The notes under the pieces are model-generated. The model worked only from the letters and a program-made list of their open reading frames with translations. It had not been told where the DNA came from and did no database searches. A stretch of DNA of 64,000 nt from Pyxidicoccus trucidator (GTDB taxonomy: Bacteria; Myxococcota; Myxococcia; Myxococcales; Myxococcaceae): the NCBI RefSeq assembly GCF_010894435.1, contig NZ_JAAIXZ010000011.1, positions 186,001-250,000 on the forward strand, given 5' to 3'. Within the stretch, counting starts at the first letter, position 1, and every line of letters begins with the position of its first letter. Position numbers and translations under genes: made by a program. Of this stretch, positions 44,533 through 59,096 are shown in pieces.

Positions 44533-46101
44533 TCAGGCGGCCGACTGCCAGGGCGCGGTGCCAGGAGGCATCCCCGGAGAGGACGACTCCGGGAAGCGCT
44601 GCATGCGCTGGATGCCGTTGCGGTCCAGCACCAGCCGGACGAACTGCGTCGTCTCCTGGCGGCGGTCCGTCTCCTCCTCCTCCACGGTGAAGCGGAACAC
44701 CACGTCCACCGGGTAGCGCTTGGCGCCGCGGATGTGGCCCACGGACAGGTCCGCCAGGTCCACGTACTCCAGCGCCAGCTCCGGCTCGTCCATGTCGCGC
44801 AGGAAGCGCTCCACGTTCAGCCGGAGGATGTCGGTGACGCCCGTCAGGCCCCGCTCCGTGCGCGGCATGAGGCGCGCGTCCAGGTCGATGTGCTTGCGGT
44901 AGCGGATGACCGTCTCCGACACCTCGCCCTGGGACGCGGTGAGGAAGTCGTCGCGGTGGCGCAGCCCGGACACGGACTCGGGCACCTTGAAGACCGGCGC
45001 GTAGTCCACCCGCTCCTCGCAGGTGCCGATGGAGCGCCCGGTGACGGGGTCCACCAGGTCCGCCGTCCGGTCCGCCAGGTGCGTGGCGGCCACGCGGCTG
45101 AGCATGCGCCGCAGGCCCTCCTTGATGCGGTCCTTCACCATGTAGCCGACGACGAGGATGAGGAAGAAGTTGAGGCTGGCCTGCGCGAAGCGCGCCTGCG
45201 CCCAGAAGGCCACCGCGGTGGCGAACGTCATCGCCACGCCCGCGGCGAAGGCGAAGAGCATCTCCTCGAAGCCCTGCCGCTTCTGCCTCCGCTTCGAGGA
45301 CAGGAAGAGCACGTTCATGCAGAACTTCTTCAGGAAGCCCAGCCGCTGGATGTACTCCTCGTTGTCCCCCGTGGGGCTCAACACGCTGCGCAGCCGGTGC
45401 TCCTTGCGGTACGCCTCCTCGCGCAGCACCGCCTCCATCAGCCCCTTGCGCAGCCCCATCCACGGCTCGGACTTCGGCAGCGCCTTCATGTCCGCCACCG
45501 AGCGCCGGAAGCCGCCCTCCACCAGGAGGCTGACGTACTCGTCCACCAGCCGCAGCGCCGCGCGCGAGCGCTCCTGCAGCCGCAGCTCCCCCACCGCGCG
45601 CAGCCACACGCGGAAGCGCTCCAGCACCCGGGTGACACCGGCCTGCATGGCGATGATTTCCGCCTCCAGCACCGCGCACGCCTCGGCCGGCAGCCCCCCC
45701 GTCCCCTCGCAGCGCGACTCCACGCCGATGGCGAAGCGGCGCAGCGCACCGCGCAGCACGCACGACAGCAGCTTCGCCTGGTAGACGACGTCCGCCTCCG
45801 TCCCCATCCCCGTGCGCAGCCACGCCTCCAGCCGCACCAGCGGCGAGGCGTCCGACGACAGCAGCTCGTCCACCGCCATCACCGGCGTCTTGAAGCGCAC
45901 GTAGTTGTGGATGTCGGCGTAGAAGTCCGCGCGCGGGTACGTCTCCGCGTCGATGTTCAGACTGCCGGGCAGGAAGAGATACGCCTCCACGAGGTAGCGC
46001 GTCGCCTCCGTGCCGGTGGGCTGGTACTCGAGCTTTATCTCGAACTGCTTCCGGTCATGGACCTCGAAGCGGCTCTGCAAGGGTGCGGATGCCTGGGACA
46101 C
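44533..46101 (-). CDS. Large protein of unknown function with two membrane helices
   Basis: The 522-residue protein begins at a GTG and has a beta-rich first 60 residues (KQFEIKLEYQPTGTEATRYL), a long helical middle, and two hydrophobic helices at about 288-330 (FAFAAGVAMTFATAVAFW and ASLNFFLILVVGYMV) separated by a short loop, then a beta-rich C-terminal 170 residues. The layout suggests a membrane-anchored protein with both large ends cytoplasmic. I recognise no family. The flanking transporter and HAD genes are on the same strand, with no clear functional link. Confidence 0.72.
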   Translation of the reverse strand: MSQASAPLQSRFEVHDRKQFEIKLEYQPTGTEATRYLVEAYLFLPGSLNIDAETYPRADFYADIHNYVRFKTPVMAVDELLSSDASPLVRLEAWLRTGMGTEADVVYQAKLLSCVLRGALRRFAIGVESRCEGTGGLPAEACAVLEAEIIAMQAGVTRVLERFRVWLRAVGELRLQERSRAALRLVDEYVSLLVEGGFRRSVADMKALPKSEPWMGLRKGLMEAVLREEAYRKEHRLRSVLSPTGDNEEYIQRLGFLKKFCMNVLFLSSKRRQKRQGFEEMLFAFAAGVAMTFATAVAFWAQARFAQASLNFFLILVVGYMVKDRIKEGLRRMLSRVAATHLADRTADLVDPVTGRSIGTCEERVDYAPVFKVPESVSGLRHRDDFLTASQGEVSETVIRYRKHIDLDARLMPRTERGLTGVTDILRLNVERFLRDMDEPELALEYVDLADLSVGHIRGAKRYPVDVVFRFTVEEEETDRRQETTQFVRLVLDRNGIQRMQRFPESSSPGMPPGTAPWQSAA

Positions 46102-46175
46102 ACCCGCACTCTACGTTACCTGTCTGTCACGCGGGAGAGACCCCCCCGTGACGCGTCCGTTGCAGCACGAAGGAG

Positions 46176-47639
46176 CTACCCCCCGGTGCCAGTCCGGGAG
46201 GCCGGGGCGGCCGGGGGCACGGGCAGCGAGGCGGGCACCGGCGTGGACTTCGGCTGGGGCTTCGCGTTCCACACCCGGGTGGCCAGCAGCATGCCCGCGA
46301 AGGACAGCGGGAGCATGGCCAGCGGCCAGTTGCCCCAGTTGCCCGGGGCCTTCGCCAGGTCCCCGGCGGGGAGGATGGAGCCCAGCAGAATCGACTGGAG
46401 GGCGGTGCCCGCGTACACGGCGCCGTCGATGATGCCCACCGCCAGGCCCGCGTTCTTCTTGCCGCCGAAGTCCATGCTGGCCGTGCCGGACAGCATGCCG
46501 TGCACGCCGATGACGCACAGGGACATGAAGATGACCGTCCACCCCAGGGCCACGCTCTCCAGGAGGAACAGGGTGGCGACGGCGCCCACGGACATGCCCG
46601 CGTAGAGCACGGCGGAGACGGGGCCCCGGCGCGAGTCGAAGACCCGGTCGCTGATGAGGCCGGCGAACATGCCGCCGGTGATGCCGGCCACGCACAGCAG
46701 CATGCCCCAGTTGGCCGCGACGAAGGCCTCACCGATGCCGGTGGCCTTCGCGAACTTGGGGTACCACTGCATGATGGCGTTGCGCATGAAGCCGCTGCAG
46801 AACTCGATGCAGAGGATGACGATGATGGTGCGGTTGCTGATCATCCGCTTGAACACCGGCCACACGCCCAGGGGCGCTCCGGTGTCACCCGAGGACGCGT
46901 CCGCGGTGTCGAAGTCCTTGTGGCCCGCGTGGCTCGGCGTGTCCCGGATGACGAAGAAGTCCAGCACCAGGAAGGCGGCGAGGATGGCGGCCGGCACGAA
47001 GAACGCCCAGTACGTGGGCGCCGCCTGCACGATGAACCGGCTCCAGTCGTAGGCGAAGTAGACGCCCAGCGAGATGAGGATGCCGAAGACGCCGCCCAGC
47101 TGGCCGCGCTCGCGCACGTGGAACCAGGACGCGTTCACCTTGACGATGGAGACCGCGCCGAAGCTCTGGAAGTACATGTTGACGGCGTAGAGGAACGACA
47201 GCGTCGCCACGAGGCCGCCGGGCGGCACCCAGCCCTGCGTCAGCACCGCGTACACCACACCGCCCATGGCGATGTTGGCCGCCGACGAGCCGGCCGCGGA
47301 GATGAGGATGGTCTTCCGCCCGCCCAGCCGGTCCGTCAGCGGGCCGTTGAGGAGGAAGGAGAAGCCGTAGGTGAGCGTGCCCCAGAAGAACACGGTGCCG
47401 AAGCCCGCGTTGTCGATGTGGTCCTTCATGGCGCTGGTGGCCACGTTGAGGTTGTAGCGCCCCATGTAGAGGAACGCGTACGTCATCCCCAGCGGGAACC
47501 AGTTGAAGAAGCGGCGGCGGCGGAACGCGTCCGTGTGGCCCAGCTCCACCTTGGGCAGGCGCGTCAGGACGAGGGCGATGGCCCCCAGCAGGATGAGGAT
47601 GGGCAGCAGCTGGGCCAGCCAGGGGGGCAGCGACGACAT
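46176..47639 (-). CDS. MFS transporter, organophosphate:phosphate antiporter type (GlpT/UhpT-like)
   Basis: The 487-residue protein has about 12 membrane helices. The start region RRRFFNWFPLGMTYAFLYMGRYNLNV matches the GlpT/UhpT opening, with the basic loop DRLGGRKTILI typical of the major facilitator superfamily between helices 2 and 3. So it likely exchanges an organophosphate such as glycerol-3-phosphate or a sugar phosphate with phosphate. ATG 47639 has GAGG upstream. The C-terminus is Pro/Ala-rich and cytoplasmic. It lies 98 bases downstream of the Nudix gene. Confidence 0.9.
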   Translation of the reverse strand: MSSLPPWLAQLLPILILLGAIALVLTRLPKVELGHTDAFRRRRFFNWFPLGMTYAFLYMGRYNLNVATSAMKDHIDNAGFGTVFFWGTLTYGFSFLLNGPLTDRLGGRKTILISAAGSSAANIAMGGVVYAVLTQGWVPPGGLVATLSFLYAVNMYFQSFGAVSIVKVNASWFHVRERGQLGGVFGILISLGVYFAYDWSRFIVQAAPTYWAFFVPAAILAAFLVLDFFVIRDTPSHAGHKDFDTADASSGDTGAPLGVWPVFKRMISNRTIIVILCIEFCSGFMRNAIMQWYPKFAKATGIGEAFVAANWGMLLCVAGITGGMFAGLISDRVFDSRRGPVSAVLYAGMSVGAVATLFLLESVALGWTVIFMSLCVIGVHGMLSGTASMDFGGKKNAGLAVGIIDGAVYAGTALQSILLGSILPAGDLAKAPGNWGNWPLAMLPLSFAGMLLATRVWNAKPQPKSTPVPASLPVPPAAPASRTGTGG

Positions 47640-47737
47640 GCAGCGACCTCGGCAGTGAGTGACGGAACGCCGCGCACCCTACCCCGGCGCGCGGCACGGC
47701 GGAAACCCGCGCCGCGATTCCCCCACCGCCCACCGCG

Positions 47738-48421
47738 TCAGGGCTGGCGGGCAAGCAGCCGCGTCAGCGCCACCTCCGTCTTCGCATCCGGGATGTCCCC
47801 CCGCCGGCACGCCTCCAGCACCTCCGGCAGGGGCCGCCAGTGCAGCTGCGTGCCCTCCTCTAGAGGCGTGCCGTCGCCTTCCGCCTCCACGGGCTCCAGC
47901 CCCGTGACGTCCACCGCGGCCGGGAAGACCTTCTCCGACAGGATGCCCGGCGCGAGGAAGAAGGAGCCACCCAGCAGCTGGATGTCCTCGGGCTTCACCG
48001 CGTAGCCCGCTTCTTCGCGCACCTCCTCCGCCGCGCGCCGCTTCAGCCCCTCGTCGCCCTTGTCCTCCGGCTCCAGCAGCCCCGCGACGATTTCCTCCAC
48101 CCGCAGGTAACCGGGCGCCGGGTCCGGCACCGTCATGGCGTCCCGGTTGTCCTTCCGGAAGTACGCCGCGGGCCGCAGGTTCATCCGCGTCAGGACCTCC
48201 AGCACGCCCGACGCGTCGCGTCGGAAGACGAGCACCGCGACGGCGTCCAGCCGGGGCCGGTCCACCACGTCCACGCGGTACACGGAAGAGGCCGTTCCAT
48301 CCGAGCGCCGGTTGCGGCAGCGCAGGCGCCGCACCCGCAGGAAGCCCTCGTCACACCTCGCGGTGGACGAGAAATCCTCGATGATCTCGATGTCAGTCAC
48401 ACTGGAATGGCGCTGCTTCAT
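47738..48421 (-). CDS. Nudix hydrolase
   Basis: The 227-residue protein contains a Nudix box: GLLEPEDKGDEGLKRRAAEE then VREEAGY, giving the GxxxxxExxxxxxxREUxEExGU pattern with REEAGY-type catalytic Glu residues. The N-terminus has RVDVVDRPRLDAVAVLVFRR, the usual lead strands. ADP-ribose or a nucleoside-diphosphate sugar is a common substrate for this shape, but it cannot be fixed from sequence. ATG 48421 has GGAGAGCAGG upstream. It is divergent from the 5'-nucleotidase-like operon, across a 144-base gap. Confidence 0.9.
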   Translation of the reverse strand: MKQRHSSVTDIEIIEDFSSTARCDEGFLRVRRLRCRNRRSDGTASSVYRVDVVDRPRLDAVAVLVFRRDASGVLEVLTRMNLRPAAYFRKDNRDAMTVPDPAPGYLRVEEIVAGLLEPEDKGDEGLKRRAAEEVREEAGYAVKPEDIQLLGGSFFLAPGILSEKVFPAAVDVTGLEPVEAEGDGTPLEEGTQLHWRPLPEVLEACRRGDIPDAKTEVALTRLLARQP

Positions 48422-48565
48422 GTCTGCCTGCTCTCCGGGCGAGAAGGAATGCGAGGGTGATGGAGTAGGAAAGTGATGGCGGCGTTGCTTGCCGGACAGA
48501 GGATGATCCCGTACGGTGCGCCGGCTTTACCGCTGTCTTCCCCCTGAAACACGGAATCTCTCCTG

Positions 48566-50950
48566 ATGCGTCGCGTCCTGCTCGGCCTCCTCTGCGCCCT
48601 GGCTACGGCTTCGTGTATGCCGGTGATGGAAGGCCAGGATTTCAACCTCGAGGGCCAGGAGGTGCGGTTGACGCTCCTCCATACCTCGGACATCCACTCG
48701 CGCCTCATCCCCTATGACTTCGCGCCGTTGAAGACGGACCAGGACCTGGGGCTCATTCCCGAGGCCGGTCCGTTCGGAGGCGCCACCCGCATGGCGGCGC
48801 TGCTCAAGCGCGAGCGGAGCCGGGGCGAGCGGGTCATCCACCTGGACTCGGGCGACTGCTTCCAGGGCGCGCCCATCTTCAACCTCAACACCGGCGAGGT
48901 GGAGTTCAAGTTCCTCTCGCAGGCGAGGCTGGACGCGGCCGTGGTGGGCAACCACGAGTTCGACGCGGGCGCCCTCAACTTCACGCAGCGCGCGCGCAAC
49001 AACGCCACCTTCCCGCTGCTGGCCGCCAACTACCAGTGGAGCGACTTCCGCCAGGTGGGCAGCAACCAGACGGCGCTGGAGACCGAGCCGTACACCATCC
49101 GCAACGTCAAGGGCGTGCGCGTGGGCATCATCGGCATGGCGAACATCTCCTCGCTCAACTCCATTGTCGAGGGCGGCAACAGCCTGCAGGCCATCGCCAT
49201 GGAGCAGAACGAGGTGGTGCGCGCGTACGTGGACCTGCTGCGCCCGGTGACGGACCTCATCGTCATCGTCAGCCACCTGGGCCTCCACGAGGACCAGGAC
49301 GTCATCCAGGGCTACGAGGCCTACTACGAGTACGGCCGCATCAAGTCCTTCACCACGCGCGCGAAGAGCCCCTGGCAGGTGCTGGAGTGGTTCGGTCCGG
49401 AGGGCGAGGAGAAGTCGGTGGTGCGCCTGCTCATCCCCGGCGTGTCCGGCGTGGACGTGGTGCTGGGCGGCCACCTGCACGTGGTGCTCAACCCGCCGCA
49501 GCTGCTGTCGGACCCGAGCGGCCGCAAGGTGGTGCTCGCGCACTCGGGTGCCTTCGCCAAGTACGTGGGCCGGCTGGAGCTGGTCGTGAAGATGCCGGAG
49601 GTGCCGGGCCAGGGCGAGGGCGCCGAGGTGCTCAGCCAGGACTACCGCGCCTTCCCGCTGGACGCGCTCTGGTGCGACGACGCCATGCGCCGCTACCGCT
49701 ACGACTCGTCCATCTTCTGGGAGGCGGGCCAGTACATCCAGAACACGGACGTGCGCGCGGCCATCAAGAACTGCCGCGACCAGGAGGACCGGGACACCAC
49801 GCAGCTGCTCCTGCCCTACATCCTGGGCATGGACTTCAAGCTGCAGCTGACCAACATCTTCTCCTACGCCCCGCGTGACGTGCAGCGCCGCAACAACTCC
49901 ACTGGCGGAGACTCGCCGCTGGGCAACGTGGCCGCGGACTCCATGCGCAAGCGCCGCCGCGTCGAGGCGGAGATGGCCCTCACCAACTCGCTGGGCATCC
50001 GCGACAACCTCTACTCCGGGGTGGTGACGCAGGAGTCGATGTTCAACGTGTTCCCCTTCGAGAACACCATCAACATCATGTACCTCTCCGGCAAGGAGAT
50101 GCAGGAGATGTTCAACTTCGTGGCCGAGCGCTCCGCCGAGCGTGGCTGCGTCAGCCAGGCGCAGATCTCCGGCGCGCGCTTCACCATGGACTGCGCCCAG
50201 GTGCAGATCAACGACCTGCGCATCTCCTGCGAGCAGGCGAGGGCCGGCGCCGACTGCCCCGCGGAGAACCGCGACGGCCACGCCCCCTGGCAGTGCCTGG
50301 AGGACGAGTCCTCCGCCCCCGGCGTAGGCCGCTGCTACGCCAACCCGGGAACTGAAATCGAGATCAACGGCAAGCCGCTGGACCCCACCGGCACGTACAA
50401 GATCGCCGTCAACGACTACATCGCCAAGGGCGGCTCGGGCTTCAACGTGCTCAAGCGCAACACCACCCGCATCGAGACGGGCATCTCCCTGCGCGACTCG
50501 CTCATCGGCTACATGCAGAGCTTCTGCACCTGCGAGGACATCCTCGCCGGCAATGCGACGTCCAAGACGGGGACCCGCTGCGGCACCCTCATCGACGGCC
50601 AGTGGACGGTGGACGAGCAGGTGGTGGGCTACTGCCGCTCGGCGAAGGACTTCGAGGACGCGCTGGAGCGTCAGGTGGGCAGCTGCTCGTGCCAGGAGCT
50701 GCTCGGCTTCCCGGCGGACGCGGCCCAGCGCTGCGGCGTGGCGGACCTGACGCCGGACGCCATCCAGGCGCAGTGCCAGGTGCCGACGGGCCCCTACACG
50801 GGCCGGTGCAGCTGCCGGGACGTGCTGACCGGTGGCAACCCCGTCTGCGGAAACGTGACGCCGCAGCTGCGTTCCTTCTGTGAGAACCCCACCTCCATCT
50901 CCATCGCGGACGCGGTGGAAGACGGCCGTATCGGCCGGAGGGTGAAGTAA
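48566..50950 (+). CDS. 5'-nucleotidase/UDP-sugar-hydrolase-like lipoprotein with a cysteine-repeat tail
   Basis: The signal peptide ends near TASC with Cys 17, a fair lipobox. The catalytic half has a two-metal phosphoesterase core (LLHTSDIHSRLIP, VVGNHEFDAG, LGGHLHVV). The second half is the 5'-nucleotidase C-terminal domain (GGDSPLGNVAADSM, VFPFENTINIMYLSG, YKIAVNDYIAKGGSGFN). Beyond residue 650 come three tandem modules beginning CTCEDIL (654), CSCQELL (707) and CSCRDVL (748), each closing with a CG and later C, a pattern I do not recognise. It probably hydrolyses nucleotides at the outer surface. It is the first gene of an operon with 50950 and 53027. Confidence 0.9.
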   Translation: MRRVLLGLLCALATASCMPVMEGQDFNLEGQEVRLTLLHTSDIHSRLIPYDFAPLKTDQDLGLIPEAGPFGGATRMAALLKRERSRGERVIHLDSGDCFQGAPIFNLNTGEVEFKFLSQARLDAAVVGNHEFDAGALNFTQRARNNATFPLLAANYQWSDFRQVGSNQTALETEPYTIRNVKGVRVGIIGMANISSLNSIVEGGNSLQAIAMEQNEVVRAYVDLLRPVTDLIVIVSHLGLHEDQDVIQGYEAYYEYGRIKSFTTRAKSPWQVLEWFGPEGEEKSVVRLLIPGVSGVDVVLGGHLHVVLNPPQLLSDPSGRKVVLAHSGAFAKYVGRLELVVKMPEVPGQGEGAEVLSQDYRAFPLDALWCDDAMRRYRYDSSIFWEAGQYIQNTDVRAAIKNCRDQEDRDTTQLLLPYILGMDFKLQLTNIFSYAPRDVQRRNNSTGGDSPLGNVAADSMRKRRRVEAEMALTNSLGIRDNLYSGVVTQESMFNVFPFENTINIMYLSGKEMQEMFNFVAERSAERGCVSQAQISGARFTMDCAQVQINDLRISCEQARAGADCPAENRDGHAPWQCLEDESSAPGVGRCYANPGTEIEINGKPLDPTGTYKIAVNDYIAKGGSGFNVLKRNTTRIETGISLRDSLIGYMQSFCTCEDILAGNATSKTGTRCGTLIDGQWTVDEQVVGYCRSAKDFEDALERQVGSCSCQELLGFPADAAQRCGVADLTPDAIQAQCQVPTGPYTGRCSCRDVLTGGNPVCGNVTPQLRSFCENPTSISIADAVEDGRIGRRVK

Positions 50951-52941
50951 TGAAGCGACTGATGCTCGTGTCGGCCTTCGTCCTGGCCGGCTGCTATACC
51001 GAAGAGGCCGTCCAGCCGAAGGGCGTGGCCACCTTTGACGTGCAGGTGAAGGGCCTCTACGTCGCCAACAGCAACCCGCGCGCGGCGTTGCCGGTGGCGG
51101 ACGAGTGCGCCGCCCGCCACAACGGCAACCAGAGCCAGGTGCCCCTGGAGGTGCGGGGCACCCCGGACTGCCGCTACCTCATCCCCCGCAGCGCGGTGGA
51201 CATCGACCTGGACATCACCGCCATCGACGCGAAGGGCCAGCAGATGGAGGCCTTCAATGGCCCGGTGGCCTTCCGCGTCGTCCCGGGCAACCTCACCGGC
51301 GCCTACAACTACCGGTGGACGAACCTGACCAACGGCAAGGGCACCGGCACCGTGCGCGCCTCGCAGCTGTACGGCGAGATGCACGTCTGGGTGCAGGACG
51401 AGGCGCCCGAGGTGGACTACTCCGAGGGCCAGGTGATGCCCGGAGACCTGCCAGAGGAGCCGGCGACGCGCAGCTACGCCACGGGCCTGTCGCGGGCGCT
51501 GCAGTTCGAAGAGCCCACGCTCGCCACGGTGCAGACGCCGCAGAACAGCGACCAGCTCACCGCGTACAACGGCACGTACATGCGAATTGGCCGCAACCCC
51601 GAGTCCGGGAGCGTGCTGCGCCAGAACTGCGAGGACGGGGACCCGAACGACAACGAGCCCGTGACGCTGCTGGTGACGGGCACGGACCCGGGCGGCTTCT
51701 TCGTGACGGACCTGACGGCGTGCCGCGTGCGGGAGAACAGCGTCCCGGGCGCCAACATCCAGACGGCCGAGCCGGACGGCTACTACCCGGGCCGGTTCAA
51801 CGCGCTCTACATCTACAACTACTCCTTCCCCGAGGGGCTGGACCCGGGCGACCTGCTCTGGACGGTGGCCGGCTCGGTGCAGGAGTTCACCGCCACCACG
51901 CAGCTCACCTTCCCCTCCTGGAGCGTGCGCGAGCACGTGCGGCTGCTGCCGCAGAGCGAGTGGGACAAGTACCTGCGGCTGGCCCCGCCGACGGAGCTCA
52001 ACGGCCGGCTGTGCGGCTACAGCAGCTCGCTGTACGTCACCGACCCGCTGTGCGGCTACAGCTACGGCAACTACAAGATGGAGAGCCTGGAGTCCGCGCT
52101 GGTGAAGGTGCGCCGCGTGAAGTTCCCCGAGGTCATCCACAGCTGCGACGCCAACGGCAACGGCCTGGTGCCCTTCTTCTGCCCGGACACGCGCGCGGGC
52201 ACCTGGGGCGCTTGCGGTGGGGACACCGCGGGGGACCCGGACGTGCCGGAGCGTCAGTGCAACATCGAGTGCACCCTGGGCGTGGGCCAGTTCGCCGGGA
52301 AGGTCTGCAGCGAGAAGAACACCTTCGACACCTTCGGCCAGTTCGTGGTGGAGATGAACCCCACCGGCGCGCCCGAGGCGGGCCTGGACGGCTCCGTCGG
52401 CGCCCGCATCCAGTACGTGGGCCGCGCTGTGGATGGGAATGCGGCCACCGCCGAGTGGGCCAGCTCCAAGGAGCTGGGCCCTGGCCTGAAGCTGAACATC
52501 TGGTGCGACAAGGCCGCGCTCCTGCGCTTCGGCGGCAGCACCCTGCCCGCCAGCGCGGACGTGCCGGTGGCCGCGCGCACCCTGCTCAAGCACACCCTGA
52601 CGTCGACCCAGGCCTTCGTCTGGGCCGCCGCGCAGAACGAGGCCGGTGGCGCCGTCACCTGCCAGGTGGGCCCGGACGCGCGCACCCGCATCAACGTGGT
52701 GATGAAGGACGCGGTGCCGGACCTCGTGGTGAACTGCCGCGAGGACGACCCGGACGCCGAGCGCGCCCAGCAGTGCCGCTTCATGCACGGCGCCACCTTC
52801 GACATCGTCGGTCACCTGCGTCAGGTGAGCGCCGCCCGGCCGCGGTGGATGGTGCTGCCTCGCGATCTGGACGACGTCTGCTGCAACCCGGGCCCGGACA
52901 TGCAGTGCCCGAAGCCCATCGAGCCTTGCGCCAATCCGTAG
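50950..52941 (+). CDS. Large lipoprotein of unknown function
   Basis: The start overlaps the previous stop (TAATG). A short signal peptide ends in VLAGC (Cys 15), a perfect lipobox, with Tyr at +2, which fits outer-membrane sorting. The 649-residue mature protein is beta-rich and has about 20 cysteines, with several NxT/GxG-rich stretches (ATFDVQVKGLYVANSN, DPGGFFVTDLTACRVREN), and no enzyme motif. No transmembrane helix. It is co-transcribed with the nucleotidase-like lipoprotein and the downstream barrel, so a shared outer-membrane complex is a reasonable inference. No family recognised. Confidence 0.85.
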   Translation: MKRLMLVSAFVLAGCYTEEAVQPKGVATFDVQVKGLYVANSNPRAALPVADECAARHNGNQSQVPLEVRGTPDCRYLIPRSAVDIDLDITAIDAKGQQMEAFNGPVAFRVVPGNLTGAYNYRWTNLTNGKGTGTVRASQLYGEMHVWVQDEAPEVDYSEGQVMPGDLPEEPATRSYATGLSRALQFEEPTLATVQTPQNSDQLTAYNGTYMRIGRNPESGSVLRQNCEDGDPNDNEPVTLLVTGTDPGGFFVTDLTACRVRENSVPGANIQTAEPDGYYPGRFNALYIYNYSFPEGLDPGDLLWTVAGSVQEFTATTQLTFPSWSVREHVRLLPQSEWDKYLRLAPPTELNGRLCGYSSSLYVTDPLCGYSYGNYKMESLESALVKVRRVKFPEVIHSCDANGNGLVPFFCPDTRAGTWGACGGDTAGDPDVPERQCNIECTLGVGQFAGKVCSEKNTFDTFGQFVVEMNPTGAPEAGLDGSVGARIQYVGRAVDGNAATAEWASSKELGPGLKLNIWCDKAALLRFGGSTLPASADVPVAARTLLKHTLTSTQAFVWAAAQNEAGGAVTCQVGPDARTRINVVMKDAVPDLVVNCREDDPDAERAQQCRFMHGATFDIVGHLRQVSAARPRWMVLPRDLDDVCCNPGPDMQCPKPIEPCANP

Positions 52942-53026
52942 TCATCCGTTGATGCAGTTCGCGCCCTGGTGAGAGCCGGGGCGCGGGGAGGAGCAGCCCC
53001 CCCGGGCCGCTTCGTGGAGAGGGACA

Positions 53027-54562
53027 TTGAAAACGCTGCAGACGCTGGCCCTGACCGGGCTGCTTTCCCTGAGTGTGCCCGCCTGGGCCGGTGATTTCGT
53101 GGACACGCGCTTGTCGTTCGTCTTCGCGGACGACAACGTGCTCGCGGGCGCGGGTGAAACGACACCCAACAGCCCGAACGCACGGTTTGGCGCGGGCAAC
53201 CAGAACACCCAGTTCTACGACAACTTCAACACCCGGTTCTCCGGCTTCGAGTCGCTGTCGAACGTGGTGCTCTACAAGCGCGCGCCCGCGTTCTTCGAGG
53301 GGCTCACCACGGAGGCGGCGCTGACGCTGCTGGTGCTGGAGCGCCCCGCGGGTGGCGTCGACATCCGCGACAACTCCAGCTACATCCGCCTCAACTACCA
53401 GCCGCCGGGCTGGAGCGAGAAGGAGGGAATCTCCCTCGTCGGCTTCCCGGTGTCCGCGGACCGCTTCCGCCTGGGCTACGCCTACCGCATCTCCTGGGGC
53501 GGCAGCGGCGTGTTCACCACGCGCTCCGCCGCCAACGGCGTGCCGGGCGTCAAGCTCCAGATTACGCGCGACAAGTGGTACGCGTACGCTGGCGCCAAGA
53601 CGGCGCTGGTGCAGAACGAGCTCATCCTCGAGGAGGAGACGCTCTACGGCGCCATGGCCGGCGCCGGCTGGGACATCCTGGAGACGCTGCGGGTGGAAGG
53701 CGGCGTCGGCTACTTCCAGAAGGGCCTCGTTCCGGGCCTGGCGACGCTGGGTGTGGAGGCGCCGGTGAACGCCGCGGGCGCGTCCGCGCAGGTCGTCTAC
53801 CACGTGGGTGTGCCGGTGGGCACGAGCGTGGACTTCCGGCTCTACAAGAACGACCCGGACATCTACCAGCGCTTCTTCGCGCCCGAGGCGTACCCGGGTG
53901 GCCTCTCCTACTCCGTGTCGCTGGAGGGCAGCTACCTCTCGCAGACGCTGGAGAAGCCGGACGAGTTCGGCGCCACGCAGCCCCAGGGCGCCACCGCGCT
54001 GGCGCTGCAGGCGCGGGCGAAGCTGGACAACATGCGCTTCAGCGTGCTCGGCCTGGTCCGCAGCCTGTCCTATATCCAGTTCGAGGTGCCGGGCTTCCCC
54101 CCGTTCCAGGACTTCCCCGAGGGCACGCAGCTGAACCCGGAGATGTTCCTGGCGGTGGGCGCGGACTACCACTTCCCGTCCATGCACTTCACGCCGGGCT
54201 TCATCCTCGGCGTGCAGCAGCCGGCCTCGTTCCGCAGCCCCACCCCGGTGCTGGGCGGCAACAACCCGCCGGAGAACCTCATCGGCACGCGCACCGTGGT
54301 GGTGCGTGACGCCAACGCGCTCAGCATCCTCCCGGAGCTCTGCGGCCAGTCCAACACGGTCTGCAAGGCGGAGCCCATCTACTCGGCCAAGGCCACCTTC
54401 CGGTGGGATTTGTCCGACTCCGTGGCGGCCGTGGGCGAGGTCTACTACACGTACGACAACAACCGGACCACGTTCCGGGACGACATCACCGGCGTGTCGC
54501 AGCCCACGTTCGAGGACCCGCACGCGTTGGGCTTCAACACCCTGCTGCAGGCGCGCTTCTAG
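53027..54562 (+). CDS. Predicted outer-membrane beta-barrel protein, TTG start
   Basis: The 511-residue protein starts at TTG 53027, four to five bases after GAGAGGG. It has a signal peptide (LQTLALTGLLSLSVPAWA), then a run of amphipathic beta strands rich in Tyr, Phe and alternate hydrophobics (GAMAGAGWDILETLRVEGG, SVSLEGSYLSQTLEK, SAKATFRWDLSDSVAAVGE), and a final Phe in LQARF, the sorting signal for barrel assembly by BamA. No plug domain or TonB box. It is the third gene of the operon, 85 bases after the lipoprotein. Confidence 0.82.
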   Translation: MKTLQTLALTGLLSLSVPAWAGDFVDTRLSFVFADDNVLAGAGETTPNSPNARFGAGNQNTQFYDNFNTRFSGFESLSNVVLYKRAPAFFEGLTTEAALTLLVLERPAGGVDIRDNSSYIRLNYQPPGWSEKEGISLVGFPVSADRFRLGYAYRISWGGSGVFTTRSAANGVPGVKLQITRDKWYAYAGAKTALVQNELILEEETLYGAMAGAGWDILETLRVEGGVGYFQKGLVPGLATLGVEAPVNAAGASAQVVYHVGVPVGTSVDFRLYKNDPDIYQRFFAPEAYPGGLSYSVSLEGSYLSQTLEKPDEFGATQPQGATALALQARAKLDNMRFSVLGLVRSLSYIQFEVPGFPPFQDFPEGTQLNPEMFLAVGADYHFPSMHFTPGFILGVQQPASFRSPTPVLGGNNPPENLIGTRTVVVRDANALSILPELCGQSNTVCKAEPIYSAKATFRWDLSDSVAAVGEVYYTYDNNRTTFRDDITGVSQPTFEDPHALGFNTLLQARF

Positions 54563-54598
54563 TCTCCGACAGCCCTGAGGGGCCCGCTTGAAACACCG

Positions 54599-54630
54599 CG
54601 GCCCGGTTCCCCTCGCGGGGAGCCGGGCCG
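54599..54630. terminator. Bidirectional terminator hairpin between convergent genes
   Basis: A 14-base-pair stem (CGGCCCGGTTCCCC pairing with GGGGAGCCGGGCCG, one TG pair) and TCGC loop lies between the barrel gene and the ATPase gene. No U tract; very stable, so Rho-assisted stopping on both strands is plausible. Confidence 0.6.
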
Positions 54631-54659
54631 TCGCAGGTCCGGGCCTGGAGGGCTTCGCC

Positions 54660-56504
54660 TCAGGCGGACGTCATCCGCACCACCTCGTCGAAGGCGGTGA
54701 GGCCCTGGGCCAGCTTGCGCACGGCGGCCTCGCGCAGGGTGCGCATGCCGGAGCGGCGGGCCGCTTCCACCAGCTTGTCGTACGGGGCCTCGCGGGAGAT
54801 GAGGTCTCGCAGCTCGCCGCCGGAGGTGACGATTTCGAAGACGCCGGTGCGGCCCACGAAGCCGGTGCCCCGGCAGCGCACGCAGCCGGCGCCCCGGAGC
54901 AGCCGCACCCCGCCCGGCAGCAGCGGCAGCGGGGCCTGGAGCGCCAGCAGCTCGTCCGGGGTGAGCGTCGTCTCCTCCGCGCAGTGGCTGCACACGCGCC
55001 GCAGCAGGCGCTGGGCCATGACGCCGAGCAGGCTCTGCGCCAGGAGGAAGGACGGCACGCCGAGGTCCCTCATGCGCGCCACCGCGCCCAGCGCGTCGTT
55101 GGTGTGCAGCGTGGACAGCACGAGGTGGCCGGTGAGCGCGGCCTGGATGGCGTTCTCCGCCGTCTCCGCGTCTCGAATCTCGCCCACCATGATGACGTCC
55201 GGGTCCTGGCGCAGGATGTGGCGCAGCGCCCCCGCGAAGTCGAGCCCGGCCTTGGGCTGCACCTGCACCTGGTTGAAGGCGTCCCACACCATTTCGATGG
55301 GGTCTTCAATCGTGGTGACGTTGACGTCCGGCCCGGCCAGCGCCTTGAGCGCGGAGTAGAGCGTCGTCGTCTTGCCGCTGCCCGTGGGGCCGGTGACGAG
55401 GATGAGGCCGTGGGGCCTGTCTATCCACGACTCGAAGGCGCCCTTCTCGTCCTGCTCGAAGCCGAGCTGGGCGATGTCCTGCACCAGCGTCTCCGGGTCG
55501 AAGATGCGGATGACCACCTTCTCGCCGAAGGCGGTGGGCAGCGTGGACACGCGCAGCTCCACCTCGCGGCCGTCGCGCTCCGTCTTGATGCGGCCGTCCT
55601 GCGGCCGGCGCTTCTCGGAGATGTCGATGCGCGCCAGCATCTTCACGCGCGAGACGATGGGCGCGTGCACCTGCGCGGGCAGCGTGTACACGGGGTGCAG
55701 CACGCCGTCGATGCGCAGGCGCACCATGCTGGTGGCGCGCTTGGGCTCGACGTGGATGTCCGAGGCGCGGTTGTCGAACGCGTAGCGCAGCAGGTAGTCC
55801 ACCGCCTGCACCACCGGCTTGTCCGACGCCTCCAGCTCCTGGGTGCCGCTGAGCGACACCAGCTGCTCGAAGTTGGAGACCTGGGCCCCGGCGGAGGCGC
55901 CGCCGAAGTCGTCCGCCGCGCGAGCCAGCGTCTTGTTGAAGCCGTAGATGTGGGCGATGGACCGGAGGATGTCCGCCTTGGCGCACAGCACCGGCTCCAC
56001 CGGCAGCCCGGTGAGGCGGTAGAGGTTCTCGAAGAGCTCGCGGTCGAACGGGTTGGCCACCGCCACCATCAGCCGCCCCTGCTCGTTGCGCTCCAGCGGC
56101 AGCAGCACGTGCTTCTGCGCGTAGGGCCGGGACACCGTGCGCGTGGCCATGGCCATGTCCAGCTTGAGCGGGTCTATCTTCCGGTAGGCGATGCCCGCGG
56201 CCCGGGCGGCGGCCTCGGTGACGCGGTCCTCGTCCAGAACCCCGCGCCCGTTGGCCAGGGGCACCTGGAAGGCGGCCACCACCTCCACCGGCGACACGTC
56301 GTAGCGCGCCGCCTCCTTGCCCCCCGCGCCCGCCTGCGCCTTGAGGACGCGCGCACGCGCGGCCGGCTCGCGGGCCAGCACCTCCTGCGCCTGCTGGGGC
56401 GTCAGCAGCCCCTGGCCCACCAGCGCCTCCAGCACGAAGAGCGTGGTGAAGTCGTCGCGGCTCCGCGAGGGGGTGCCGCCCGAGCCACTCACTGCCTGTG
56501 CCAA
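54660..56504 (-). CDS. GspE/PilB-type secretion/pilus ATPase
   Basis: The 614-residue protein has an N-terminal MshEN-like region (about 15-180; EDRVTEAAARAAGIAYRKI), a middle N2 domain with SDIHVEPKRATSMVRLRIDG and the ATPase core: GPTGSGKTTTLYSAL (Walker A), VTTIEDPIEMV, RHILRQDPDVIMVGEIRD (Walker B/Asp box) and GHLVLSTLHTNDA (His box). A CxxC-CxxC zinc region (CSHCAEE, CVRCRGTG) is present near 510-560. Such ATPases drive type IV pilus or type II secretion assembly; the partner genes are not nearby. Its start overlaps the upstream protease gene by 16 bases. Confidence 0.92.
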   Translation of the reverse strand: MAQAVSGSGGTPSRSRDDFTTLFVLEALVGQGLLTPQQAQEVLAREPAARARVLKAQAGAGGKEAARYDVSPVEVVAAFQVPLANGRGVLDEDRVTEAAARAAGIAYRKIDPLKLDMAMATRTVSRPYAQKHVLLPLERNEQGRLMVAVANPFDRELFENLYRLTGLPVEPVLCAKADILRSIAHIYGFNKTLARAADDFGGASAGAQVSNFEQLVSLSGTQELEASDKPVVQAVDYLLRYAFDNRASDIHVEPKRATSMVRLRIDGVLHPVYTLPAQVHAPIVSRVKMLARIDISEKRRPQDGRIKTERDGREVELRVSTLPTAFGEKVVIRIFDPETLVQDIAQLGFEQDEKGAFESWIDRPHGLILVTGPTGSGKTTTLYSALKALAGPDVNVTTIEDPIEMVWDAFNQVQVQPKAGLDFAGALRHILRQDPDVIMVGEIRDAETAENAIQAALTGHLVLSTLHTNDALGAVARMRDLGVPSFLLAQSLLGVMAQRLLRRVCSHCAEETTLTPDELLALQAPLPLLPGGVRLLRGAGCVRCRGTGFVGRTGVFEIVTSGGELRDLISREAPYDKLVEAARRSGMRTLREAAVRKLAQGLTAFDEVVRMTSA

Positions 56505-58288
56505 GCCCGTCTCCTTCCCGTCACCAGCAGCAGCACCACCAGCCCGCCGAGGAACGCCGCGGCGGACATCGGAGCACCCTGGCAGCCACAGCCTCCCGGC
56601 CCGCCCACGGAGCCCTCCGCGCCACCGTCCGTGGGGACGGGAGGCGGGGTGCCCGCGTCATTGCAGAGCGCGCACGTGCCGGCGTCCGGGCGCGCGGTAG
56701 GATCGTAACAGGCGCCTCCGGCACCGCAGAGCGTGTTGGGCGGGCAGTCCTGGCTGGACCGGCAGGCCGCCAGGCAGGCCGCGCCGTCCTCCACCGCGCT
56801 GCACTGCACCGGCGAGGTGCACGAGCCCTGCGAGCAGTCGCGCACGCAGGCCCGCTCTCCCTGGGGGCTGACCACGCGGCACGTGGTGCCACCCGGGCAC
56901 GAGCACGCCTGCAGGGAGCACGGCTGCGCGCACACGCCCTGCGGGTTGCCGTTGAGCAGCAGGCAGTACTGGTTGGTGCCGCACTGGTTGTCCGCCGTGC
57001 ACGAATCACCCACCTGCCGCCCGGACGTCTGGCGGACCACGCAGACGCGGTCGCACAGGCGGCACACGGAGTCGCTCGCGCAGTCCACGTCGCCGTAGCA
57101 GGCGGGGACGCACAGGTCGCCCTCGGGCCGCCGCGCGCACGTGTAGCCGGGGCGGCAGTCGCCCGGCGTGGCGCCACAGCGCTTGAGGCACACCTGCCCC
57201 TGGCCTTCCACCTGGGCGCACTCCGCGCCACCGGGACAGGTGCCCCGGCCGCTGCACGACTCGGTGCAGTACCCGTCGTCCCAGCGGTCGAAGCCGCTGC
57301 CCGTCCCGGAGGGCGGCACCGTGGGAGGGATGCAGCGGCCGTTCGCGGAGCCGCAGCTCCCCGTGCTCGAGTCACACTCGCGGCCCACCGGGGTGAGGGA
57401 GTCCGGCAGCGCCGGCAGGCACGCCTTCGTGAAGCCGGAGACGGCGGTGGAGGCGCGGCACACGTACGGGGCCGGGCACTCGCCCTCGGTGACGCCGGCG
57501 CAGCCCCTGGCGCACACCTGGAGGTTGGTGCTGGTGCCGCTGGTGGTGGACGGGACGGTGGCGCACGTCAGGCCGTTGGAGCAGGTCCCCGGGCCCGTGC
57601 ACGGCGAGCCCACCGCGCCCGTCTGGGGATAGAACCGGCAGAGCGCCGTGCGGTCATAAGCGGCGACGAAGCGCCGGCTCTCGCCCGGCCTCAGCACGGC
57701 GTACATCACCGCGTTGCTGCTATCGACGTCGTAGGTGTTGCCCAGGCCCAGGCAGTGGCCAAGCTCGTGCATCAGCACGCTGCGCAGGTCCATGGCGTCC
57801 GCGGGCGTGGTCGCCAGGGTGGACCAGCGGAAGTCCACCGCGTTGAGGTAGATGTCGCACTGGTAGACGTAGCCACCGAAGGTCAGCGGCCGGGCGGCCG
57901 AGGTGAGGCCTCCCCCGTTCAGCGTGTCGCGGTAGCGCGGGTCCTGGCTCTCCGTCACCCAGACGGGGACCACGGTGAAGCGGTCCGTGGGGTCCGCGAC
58001 GGTCGTCATCGGCGAGCCGTTGGTGGCACGGGACACGAACTGGAACGCGGGCCAGGCGCAGTCCACGTCCTCCCAGGCCTGGAATGCCGCCTTCGTCGCG
58101 GTCTCCACCTCGCTCAAGTCGGTGTCCGCGGGCCGGCTGCTCCGGGCATCCAGGTAGTAGCGGAGCCGGTCCTGGCTGCTGTTGAGCACCCGGTGACCCA
58201 GGTCTGTGTACTCCGTCTGAGCCATCGCCGTGGTGGACAGCACCAGCAGCCCGAGCGCCCACGCGCCCCGCAGCAGACCCCGCATCAT
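56489..58288 (-). CDS. Cysteine-rich matrixin-like protein with MYXO-CTERM tail
   Basis: The 599-residue protein has a signal peptide (MMRGLLRGAWALGLLVLSTTA) and an N-terminal metzincin region with HELGHCLGLGN: His 174, Glu 175 and His 178 are kept but the third position is Asn 184 instead of His or Asp. A Met-turn (AVMYAVL) follows. Residues 230-540 hold cysteine-rich modules (more than 40 cysteines), giving disulfide-rich repeats. The tail GGCGCQGAPMSAAAF, hydrophobic helix, TGRRRAWHRQ is a strong MYXO-CTERM signal. ATG 58288 has GGAGGAG upstream. It overlaps the downstream ATPase gene. Confidence 0.88.
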   Translation of the reverse strand: MMRGLLRGAWALGLLVLSTTAMAQTEYTDLGHRVLNSSQDRLRYYLDARSSRPADTDLSEVETATKAAFQAWEDVDCAWPAFQFVSRATNGSPMTTVADPTDRFTVVPVWVTESQDPRYRDTLNGGGLTSAARPLTFGGYVYQCDIYLNAVDFRWSTLATTPADAMDLRSVLMHELGHCLGLGNTYDVDSSNAVMYAVLRPGESRRFVAAYDRTALCRFYPQTGAVGSPCTGPGTCSNGLTCATVPSTTSGTSTNLQVCARGCAGVTEGECPAPYVCRASTAVSGFTKACLPALPDSLTPVGRECDSSTGSCGSANGRCIPPTVPPSGTGSGFDRWDDGYCTESCSGRGTCPGGAECAQVEGQGQVCLKRCGATPGDCRPGYTCARRPEGDLCVPACYGDVDCASDSVCRLCDRVCVVRQTSGRQVGDSCTADNQCGTNQYCLLLNGNPQGVCAQPCSLQACSCPGGTTCRVVSPQGERACVRDCSQGSCTSPVQCSAVEDGAACLAACRSSQDCPPNTLCGAGGACYDPTARPDAGTCALCNDAGTPPPVPTDGGAEGSVGGPGGCGCQGAPMSAAAFLGGLVVLLLVTGRRRAWHRQ

Positions 58289-58334
58289 CGCTCCACTCCT
58301 CCACGTCGGACCGCGCGCCCGACGGGCGGGGAGC

Positions 58335-59096
58335 TTAGCCGCGAACCGCCCGGACGGTGGCATCCACCAGCGACTCCATGGTGGGGCGCTCCGCGACGGC
58401 GGCCGCGGGCATGCCCAGGCGCTCCAGGGCCGCCGCCGTGGTGGGGCCGATGGCCACCACGCGCGCGGTGCCCAGGCGCTCGCGGCCCGCCGCCTCCAGG
58501 AAGGCCTCGGCGGTGCGCGGCGAGGCGAAGAGCGCCACGTCCGGAGGCGTGGACTCCAGCAGGGCCAGCGCCTCCGGCGGCATCGGCGCGGGCGTGGAGC
58601 GGTAGGCCGTCACCCGGGTGACGAGCACGCCCACGTCCCGCAACCCGTCCTCCAGCTCGCGCCGGCCCTCCTCGGCGGCGGGCAGGAGCACCTCGTCGCC
58701 CACCTGGAGTGTGTCCTTGATGAGCTGGAAGAGCGCCTCGCCCGTGCCCTCCTCCGGCTCCGCGGAGACCTCCAGGCCGAAGGCCTCGGCGGTGCGCGCG
58801 GTGCGGGGGCCCACGGCGGCCACCTTCACGCGGTGCAGCCGGTGCGCGGTGCCGGCCTCGCGCAGCGCCTCCATCAGCGCCTCCACCGAGGACGGGCTGG
58901 CGAACACCACCCACTTGTACCGCTGGATGTGCTCGGCCGCGGACGCCAGCGGACGCGGGTCCTCCGGCGGACGCAGCTCCAGGAGGGGGACGCTGAGCAC
59001 CTCCGCGCCCTCGTCCTCCAGGAGGAAGCACAGCTCTTCGGCCCGCTCACGCGGGCGCGTCACCAAGACTCGGATGCCTTCCAGTCGCCGTTCCAC
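58335..59096 (-). CDS. hemD: Uroporphyrinogen-III synthase
   Basis: HemD closes and inverts ring D of hydroxymethylbilane to give uroporphyrinogen III. The 253-residue protein has the expected two-lobe Rossmann-like layout (VLVTRPRERAEELCFLLEDEG, KWVVFASPSSVEALMEAL, DVALFASPRTAEAFLEA, VVAIGPTTAAALERLGMP), and HemD is known to be poorly conserved, so context adds weight: it follows hemC by 11 bases in the haem operon. Length matches the family (about 245). It is the last haem gene here. Confidence 0.9.
   Translation of the reverse strand: MERRLEGIRVLVTRPRERAEELCFLLEDEGAEVLSVPLLELRPPEDPRPLASAAEHIQRYKWVVFASPSSVEALMEALREAGTAHRLHRVKVAAVGPRTARTAEAFGLEVSAEPEEGTGEALFQLIKDTLQVGDEVLLPAAEEGRRELEDGLRDVGVLVTRVTAYRSTPAPMPPEALALLESTPPDVALFASPRTAEAFLEAAGRERLGTARVVAIGPTTAAALERLGMPAAAVAERPTMESLVDATVRAVRG

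Follow-up and report, generated by a model that had tools for sequence, protein, structure and literature searches.

A conserved gene trio encoding a 5'-nucleotidase-family lipoprotein, a second lipoprotein and a porin-like barrel in Pyxidicoccus trucidator, a candidate apparatus for nucleotide scavenging

In Escherichia coli, the nucleotidase UshA and the nucleoside channel Tsx combine a nucleotide-degrading enzyme with an outer-membrane channel for its product. The NAD route of Haemophilus influenzae places the outer-membrane phosphatase lipoprotein e(P4), the nucleotidase NadN and the porin OmpP2 in series. A locus resembling both was analyzed in Pyxidicoccus trucidator (genome of 12.67 Mb), within a stretch of 64,000 nucleotides, here called the window (contig NZ_JAAIXZ010000011.1, positions 186,001 to 250,000). 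The locus consists of three consecutive genes, encoding a 5'-nucleotidase-family lipoprotein (P1), a second lipoprotein (P2) and a predicted outer-membrane barrel (P3). Unlike the trio, UshA is a soluble periplasmic enzyme, the UshA and Tsx genes are unlinked, and Tsx is a 12-strand channel, whereas the model of P3 is of the maltoporin type. The H. influenzae route differs from the trio in its separate loci and in the family of its phosphatase.

The single components also have described counterparts. NutA of the Gram-negative Vibrio parahaemolyticus is described as an enzyme of the UshA/CD73 class whose signal is lipoprotein-like (PMC8475336), and by this description P1 resembles it. Unlike NutA, P1 ends in about 144 residues rich in Cys and is closely linked to P2 and P3. 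Residues 190-315 of P2 could be aligned to the OB region of ExeM/NucH-type extracellular nucleases from myxobacteria, but P2 is a lipoprotein and no nuclease (EEP) domain was detected in it. Shewanella ExeM has, in the accessible text, an OB-type region with two putative OB folds that is crucial for nuclease activity (PMC6085458). This region is taken to be the one matched by P2. P3 shares its predicted fold with maltoporin and the OprD/Occ porins, but the alignments gave only about 6-11% identity. The locus had been called a system without a known counterpart in a preliminary description made from the sequence. For the parts this was too strong, as surface nucleotidase lipoproteins such as NutA, nuclease OB regions and specific porins are all known; the pairing of the three was undescribed in the literature searched. 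No description of the trio as a unit was found in that search, which did not reach most subscription papers and from which absence from print is not claimed. Each component thus resembles known proteins, and the combination of the three genes looks new.

The trio is proposed to be an outer-membrane apparatus for scavenging nucleotides and phosphate, and this reading is given a probability of about 0.5. P1 would be a UshA/CD73-class lipoprotein of the outer membrane that removes phosphate from 5'-nucleotides freed from prey or detritus. P2 would present or recognise a substrate derived from nucleic acids, dock P1 to P3, or do both, and P3 would be a maltoporin/OprD-type porin with substrate specificity that lets in the nucleoside, the phosphate or both. 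The proteins would then act as a physical complex, with 5'-nucleotides as the substrate of an active enzyme and transport directed inwards. The diet of predatory bacteria, the cell contents of lysed prey, includes nucleic acids, and the trio is a candidate for the handling of nucleotides at the outer membrane. The computed basis of the proposal is the gene order and its conservation, the lipoprotein-type signals, the family of P1 and the predicted folds of P2 and P3.

Coordinates are given in the window and refer to the + strand unless otherwise stated. P1 (48566..50950, 794 residues) is followed by P2 (50950..52941, 663 residues), whose start codon overlaps the P1 stop codon as TAATG, and after a gap of 85 bases (52942..53026) by P3 (53027..54562, 511 residues), which has a TTG start, an ordinary signal peptide and a C-terminal Phe. 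These positions, the overlap and the gap agree with the preliminary description, as do the lipoprotein-type signal peptides of P1 and P2 and the terminal Phe of P3. The same order and strand are kept in relatives, which bears out the operon-like unit proposed there, and the three genes are probably transcribed together.

Conservation of the trio was studied in 145 genomes of the order, with thresholds of E up to 1e-30 for P1 and up to 0.001 for P2 and P3. All three genes were found in 93 genomes, none in 49 and a part in 3, and occurrence was thus all-or-none in 142 of 145. Counted singly, P1 was present in 96, P2 in 93 and P3 in 95 genomes, and every one of the 95 genomes with P3 also had P1. 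In two of the partial genomes (G037 and G038), P1 and P3 were present and the P2 slot held a divergent lipoprotein, of 489 and 482 residues, respectively; the third (G124) gave an incomplete match to P1 only. P1 stood before P3 on the same strand at each of the 40 loci that were fetched within the order, one contig (locus L101) holding just one end of P1. A detectable P2 lay between them at 38 loci, and a divergent lipoprotein filled its slot at the other two (L107 and L108). Scanning the GTDB species collection with a pattern gave 146 P3 relatives, the best 80 of which were examined. Of these named loci, 67 had 4.5 kb or more of sequence 5' of P3, and 61 of the 67 showed the full trio in the same order; the 13 loci excluded had a shorter stretch there (P1 matches in 7, P2 matches in 11). 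Fetched and named loci overlap in genomes, and their counts are not additive. The arrangement is far beyond chance. The preliminary description had made synteny across Myxococcota the test of the association, and the synteny exists.

The titles of the best 80 P3 relatives were those of myxobacterial isolates or of bins labelled Myxococcota, Myxococcales, Nannocystineae or 'Deltaproteobacteria', apart from L164 (Proteobacteria) and L117. The latter, titled 'Comamonas sp. KCTC 72670', has the trio with a P3 that is 89% identical; it is Myxococcus-like by sequence and its name is probably wrong. Across the phylum, 195 genomes were searched with the P3 profile, and relatives, paralogs included, were present in 119. 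Among the named P3 relatives listed, from which very near genomes may be omitted, the closest was that of Pyxidicoccus caerfyrddinensis (94% identical). Identity to the window sequences was 36-95% for P3, 27-81% for P2 and 42-87% for P1, with P3 the least variable of the three and P2 the most. In 65 named loci, P1 and P2 overlapped 52 times, and 46 of these overlaps measured exactly 1 or 4 bases. Except for one weak M10 match, none of the four genes that flank the trio in the window was found at the 9 loci fetched from families other than f1, and it is therefore the trio, rather than the region, that is conserved.

P1 was found to combine a metallophosphatase domain (48671-49483; PF00149, E 2e-07, 32 bits against a cut-off of 21.5) with a 5_nucleotid_C domain (49886-50458; PF02872, E 1.6e-29, 103.5 bits against 23.6), in the order required for the 5'-nucleotidase (UshA/CD73) family. 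Residues D42, H44, D97, N129, H130, H237, H303 and H305 are invariant in 21 aligned sequences; by UshA/CD73 numbering, these are presumably the metal ligands or the catalytic His and Asn. P1 thus belongs to the 5'-nucleotidase family, in line with the preliminary description, and its presumed metal ligands are intact; it may be expected to hydrolyse 5'-nucleotides. The Cys-rich tail (50516-50947) contains 12 Cys in 144 residues, and in most relatives P1 ends with DGRI, one residue and RRVK. All 21 aligned sequences of P1 keep the lipobox Cys (Cys17, 48614-48616), and all 54 of P2 keep theirs (Cys15, 50992-50994), figures that are biased upward, as the start codons of the relatives were picked by a score favouring a lipobox.

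P2 had been described as a lipoprotein with no known fold. This did not hold up, as three domains were recognised in its AlphaFold2 model (mean predicted local distance difference test score 92.9) by comparison with known structures using VIA-align. Residues from about 24 to 187 (51019-51510) form an Ig-like sandwich (domains of the GH2 type, Z up to 7.8), residues 188-328 (51511-51933) an OB fold and residues 486-576 (52405-52677) a jelly roll (Z 7.7); the fold assignments are limited to these parts, residues 329-485 and 577-663 having barely been compared. The OB fold was most similar to the HIN domains of MNDA (Z 8.0) and p204 (Z 7.8), with about 80 aligned residues and a root mean square deviation (rmsd) of 2.1-2.3, and scored lower against RPA and POT1. 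Foldseek with the whole of P2 gave weak or single-domain matches only. Z values near 8 may mirror a common arrangement rather than kinship, and the OB assignment therefore leans also on sequence. A profile of P2 matched the OB region of four myxobacterial ExeM-type proteins with hhalign (probability 84%, E 7.2e-6, 78 columns), against 0.2% and 1.6% in the controls. The ExeM/NucH model NF033681 was matched weakly by P2 of the window at residues 258-323 (17.2 bits against a cut-off of 300) and, somewhere along the protein, by 6 of 23 P2 sequences including this one (best E 0.0018). The OB fold of P2 therefore looks distantly related to that of the ExeM/NucH extracellular nucleases. No Pfam or NCBIfam family was matched by P2 above its cut-off, and a search of its sequence against solved structures gave no useful match. 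A role for P2 itself as a nuclease was rejected, since no EEP domain was found in the Pfam scans. Nor is P2 a known enzyme unrelated to the other two proteins, a finding that the preliminary description had named as grounds for abandoning the trio. The P2 alignment comprised the window sequence and 53 of 76 relatives; near-duplicates, fragments and P2 proteins bearing RCC1 repeats were left out. P2 is 1066-1076 residues long at L093-L096, L145, L146, L148-L151 and L161, and the single long P2 scanned (L094) contains an RCC1-like propeller (PF25390, E 4.8e-125).

Structure prediction supported the barrel proposed for P3, with a mean score of 83.3 on the scale used for P2. The best VIA-align match was maltoporin (1mpr; Z 20.7, 343 aligned residues, rmsd 4.1, model residues 23-511), followed by Occ/Opd porins (about 18-20, up to 19.9), MOMP (19.2) and AlgE (17.4-18.9). 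Foldseek ranked MOMP first, AlgE second (E 3.1e-8) and maltoporin third (E 4.9e-8). In the model, P3 would thus have over its full length the barrel fold of the 18-strand specific porins (maltoporin, OprD/Occ). No Pfam family, porin families included, was matched at E up to 1, and the single match among the sequences of solved structures (E 0.16) was to an unrelated protein. The plug and the TonB-dependent barrel of SusCD-type and TonB-dependent receptors gave no Pfam match in P3 either, and the porin alignments span residues 23-511. In an alignment of the window sequence with 59 of 80 relatives, from which near-duplicates, fragments and N-terminally extended proteins were left out, the terminal Phe was present in 55 of 60 sequences. 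The extended P3 homologs (L172, L181, L182, L188 and L190) have about 100-200 extra residues before the barrel start motif, which lies at positions 105-204. The extensions are partly rich in Pro, Ala and Glu, and no Pfam domain above cut-off was found in these homologs.

A known rule for the retention of lipoproteins at the inner membrane is Asp at position +2. The +2 residue in the window is Met in P1 and Tyr in P2, neither of which is a known retention residue. In Myxococcus xanthus the rule is Lys at +2, as given in the accessible text of PMC3222651. With a lipobox Cys and no retention residue at +2, both proteins have the features expected of outer-membrane lipoproteins, and they may lie in the outer membrane or at its surface.

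A complete genome of the same genus (G104) was used to locate the M. xanthus counterparts. The trio lies there on the minus strand between two secretin genes, which are taken to be MXAN2514 and MXAN3106. Interpolation by hand from these, or with the help of a nucleotidase paralog presumed to be MXAN2470, placed P1 at about MXAN2659-2664. P3, P2 and P1, in that order, would match three successive tags, and MXAN_2659-2661 are the likely counterparts, as judged by position only. P1 was not assigned to MXAN2470, because another nucleotidase gene, this paralog, lies about where that gene is expected in G104. In the accessible part of a study of the M. xanthus outer membrane, MXAN2659 was an outer-membrane barrel, called hypothetical, with 17 peptides, and MXAN2660 a lipoprotein of the outer-membrane fraction with 6 peptides (PMC3222651). 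MXAN_2661 was grouped with hydrolytic enzymes that are up in predation and found in outer-membrane vesicles, its enzyme class not being stated in the text accessible (PMC9548883). If the mapping is right, a role is suggested for MXAN2659, and if the relationship of P2 to ExeM is true, nuclease-type OB folds extend to non-catalytic lipoproteins. The trio is widely kept in Myxococcota, and neither P2 nor P3 has a Pfam family. The tight linkage of three genes, two of them for proteins without a Pfam family, together with the possible fit to predation data, makes the proposal worth testing.

Several observations weigh against nucleotide scavenging. P1 lies far below the cut-off of every named enzyme it matches, including the UshA equivalog NF007109 (142.4 bits against 600), and its substrate may differ. 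Its substrate-pocket motif is GGSGF; of the genome's five paralogs, four have Asp at this place and one likewise Ser. With these five, the genome has six genes with a 5_nucleotid_C domain, and P1 is therefore one of several nucleotidases. The OB domain of P2 is acidic (isoelectric point (pI) 4.2, charge -11), unlike a typical binder of polyanions, which weakens the idea that it binds DNA by charge; the ExeM OB region is likewise acidic (pI 4.2-4.6 in two proteins). P3 has a net charge of -14, and its residues identical in 60 of 60 sequences are seven acidic (D23, D26, D65, E75, D115, D269 and E300) and four basic (R28, R146, R148 and K191), so an anion channel is not clearly indicated. The accessible text of PMC3222651 does not mention MXAN2661, whereas it gives two further nucleotidases, MXAN2470 and MXAN5361, with 1 peptide each. 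Finally, P2 and P3 occur at L169, L174, L176 and L178 with no nucleotidase detected (at L174 no P1 was found before P2), and P3 occurs without P1 or P2 at L175 and L183; P3 therefore need not carry nucleosides.

In an alternative reading, P3 and the OB/Ig lipoprotein would form a general pair for nutrient uptake or recognition, with P1 as an exchangeable enzyme module and an import that is not primarily of nucleotides. At the deep-branching loci L169, L176 and L178 a lipoprotein of 439-448 residues that is not a nucleotidase precedes P2, and a profile of the three sequences matched the ExeM OB region (45%, E 2.2e-4); no match to P2 itself was obtained (1.7%), which speaks against this reading. 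The surroundings of nine of the P3 paralogs found gave a similar picture. A gene for a ChaN-family (PF04187) lipoprotein stands directly before the paralog in the genome of the window (L191:6659-9161, G000 C29) and in L193, and about 1.2 kb away in L196, but was not found at the other six loci. Genes for P3-family barrels thus frequently, if not invariably, have a lipoprotein gene as neighbour, and the other OB-like lipoprotein and ChaN show that this pairing is wider than the nucleotidase link. The nucleotidase is nevertheless the usual partner of P3 in the order searched, P1 accompanying it in all 95 genomes, and the general pair is considered unlikely. Slightly less doubtful, and still tentative, is a modular outer-membrane acquisition system of Myxococcota in which one family of large porins would work with lipoproteins that process or capture substrate (a nucleotidase and an OB lipoprotein, a pair of OB lipoproteins, or ChaN). 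Predators could harvest nucleotides and phosphate from lysed prey with it, as a TonB-independent analogue of the SusCD type of uptake complex at the surface.

A periplasmic layout, in which nucleotides would enter through P3 and be hydrolysed in UshA fashion by an inward-facing P1 with P2 as scaffold, is likewise improbable. It would accord with the periplasmic location of UshA in E. coli, and lipoprotein signals do not tell the face of the membrane. Vesicle and whole-cell biotinylation work by Kahnt et al. (2010), as cited in PMC3222651 and PMC9548883, reportedly found counterparts, which speaks against this layout, with the limits that the citation is secondary and that vesicle proteins can also be lumenal. 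That P3 is not an importer and instead an exporter or anchor displaying the lipoproteins on the surface seems very unlikely. The lipoprotein genes directly upstream of the barrel gene at trio loci would suit such a role, as would the alginate exporter AlgE ranking before maltoporin in Foldseek. VIA-align placed maltoporin and the OccK/Opd porins above AlgE, if by a small margin, and P3 had no Pfam match to secretion barrels. Nucleotide and phosphate scavenging at the outer membrane is retained as the preferred reading.

Signals for expression were also searched for. A stricter sigma-70 scan gave 0 sites, the terminator scan gave 3 sites against 2.4 expected, so that no terminator is claimed, and Rfam gave 0 matches in 46000-57000. 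A promoter-like element (48489..48517; TTGCCG, a 17-base spacer and TACGGT) lies upstream of P1, its end 48 bases from the start codon. Of 101 regions upstream of P1, which are related and in part duplicates, 36 had the pattern TTGnnn-17-TAYnnT no more than 150 bases from the gene, whereas mononucleotide shuffles gave a mean of 0.6 and a maximum of 3; the other 65, with Corallococcus loci among them, lacked it. The gap between P2 and P3 could fold into two GC-rich hairpins just 5' of P3 (minimum free energy -45.2, z -2.25 in the window). Changes on both sides were seen at 2 of 10 consensus pairs, with a covariation term of just -0.05, and 6 of 11 sequences folded showed no clear excess of stability (z above -1.8).

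Downstream of P3 lie genes on the minus strand for a T2SSE/MshEN-type ATPase (54660-56504) and a matrixin-domain protein (56489-58363), with no tie to the trio. On the other side, a divergent NUDIX-like gene (47738..48421, - strand; NUDIX E 0.033, below cut-off) is associated with the trio but lies outside the unit. Among the fetched loci it adjoins P1 in family f1 at 30 of 31, and in other families at 0 of 9. The NUDIX-like gene and P1 have a common intergenic region of 144 bases, and the two are possibly co-regulated in nucleotide metabolism.

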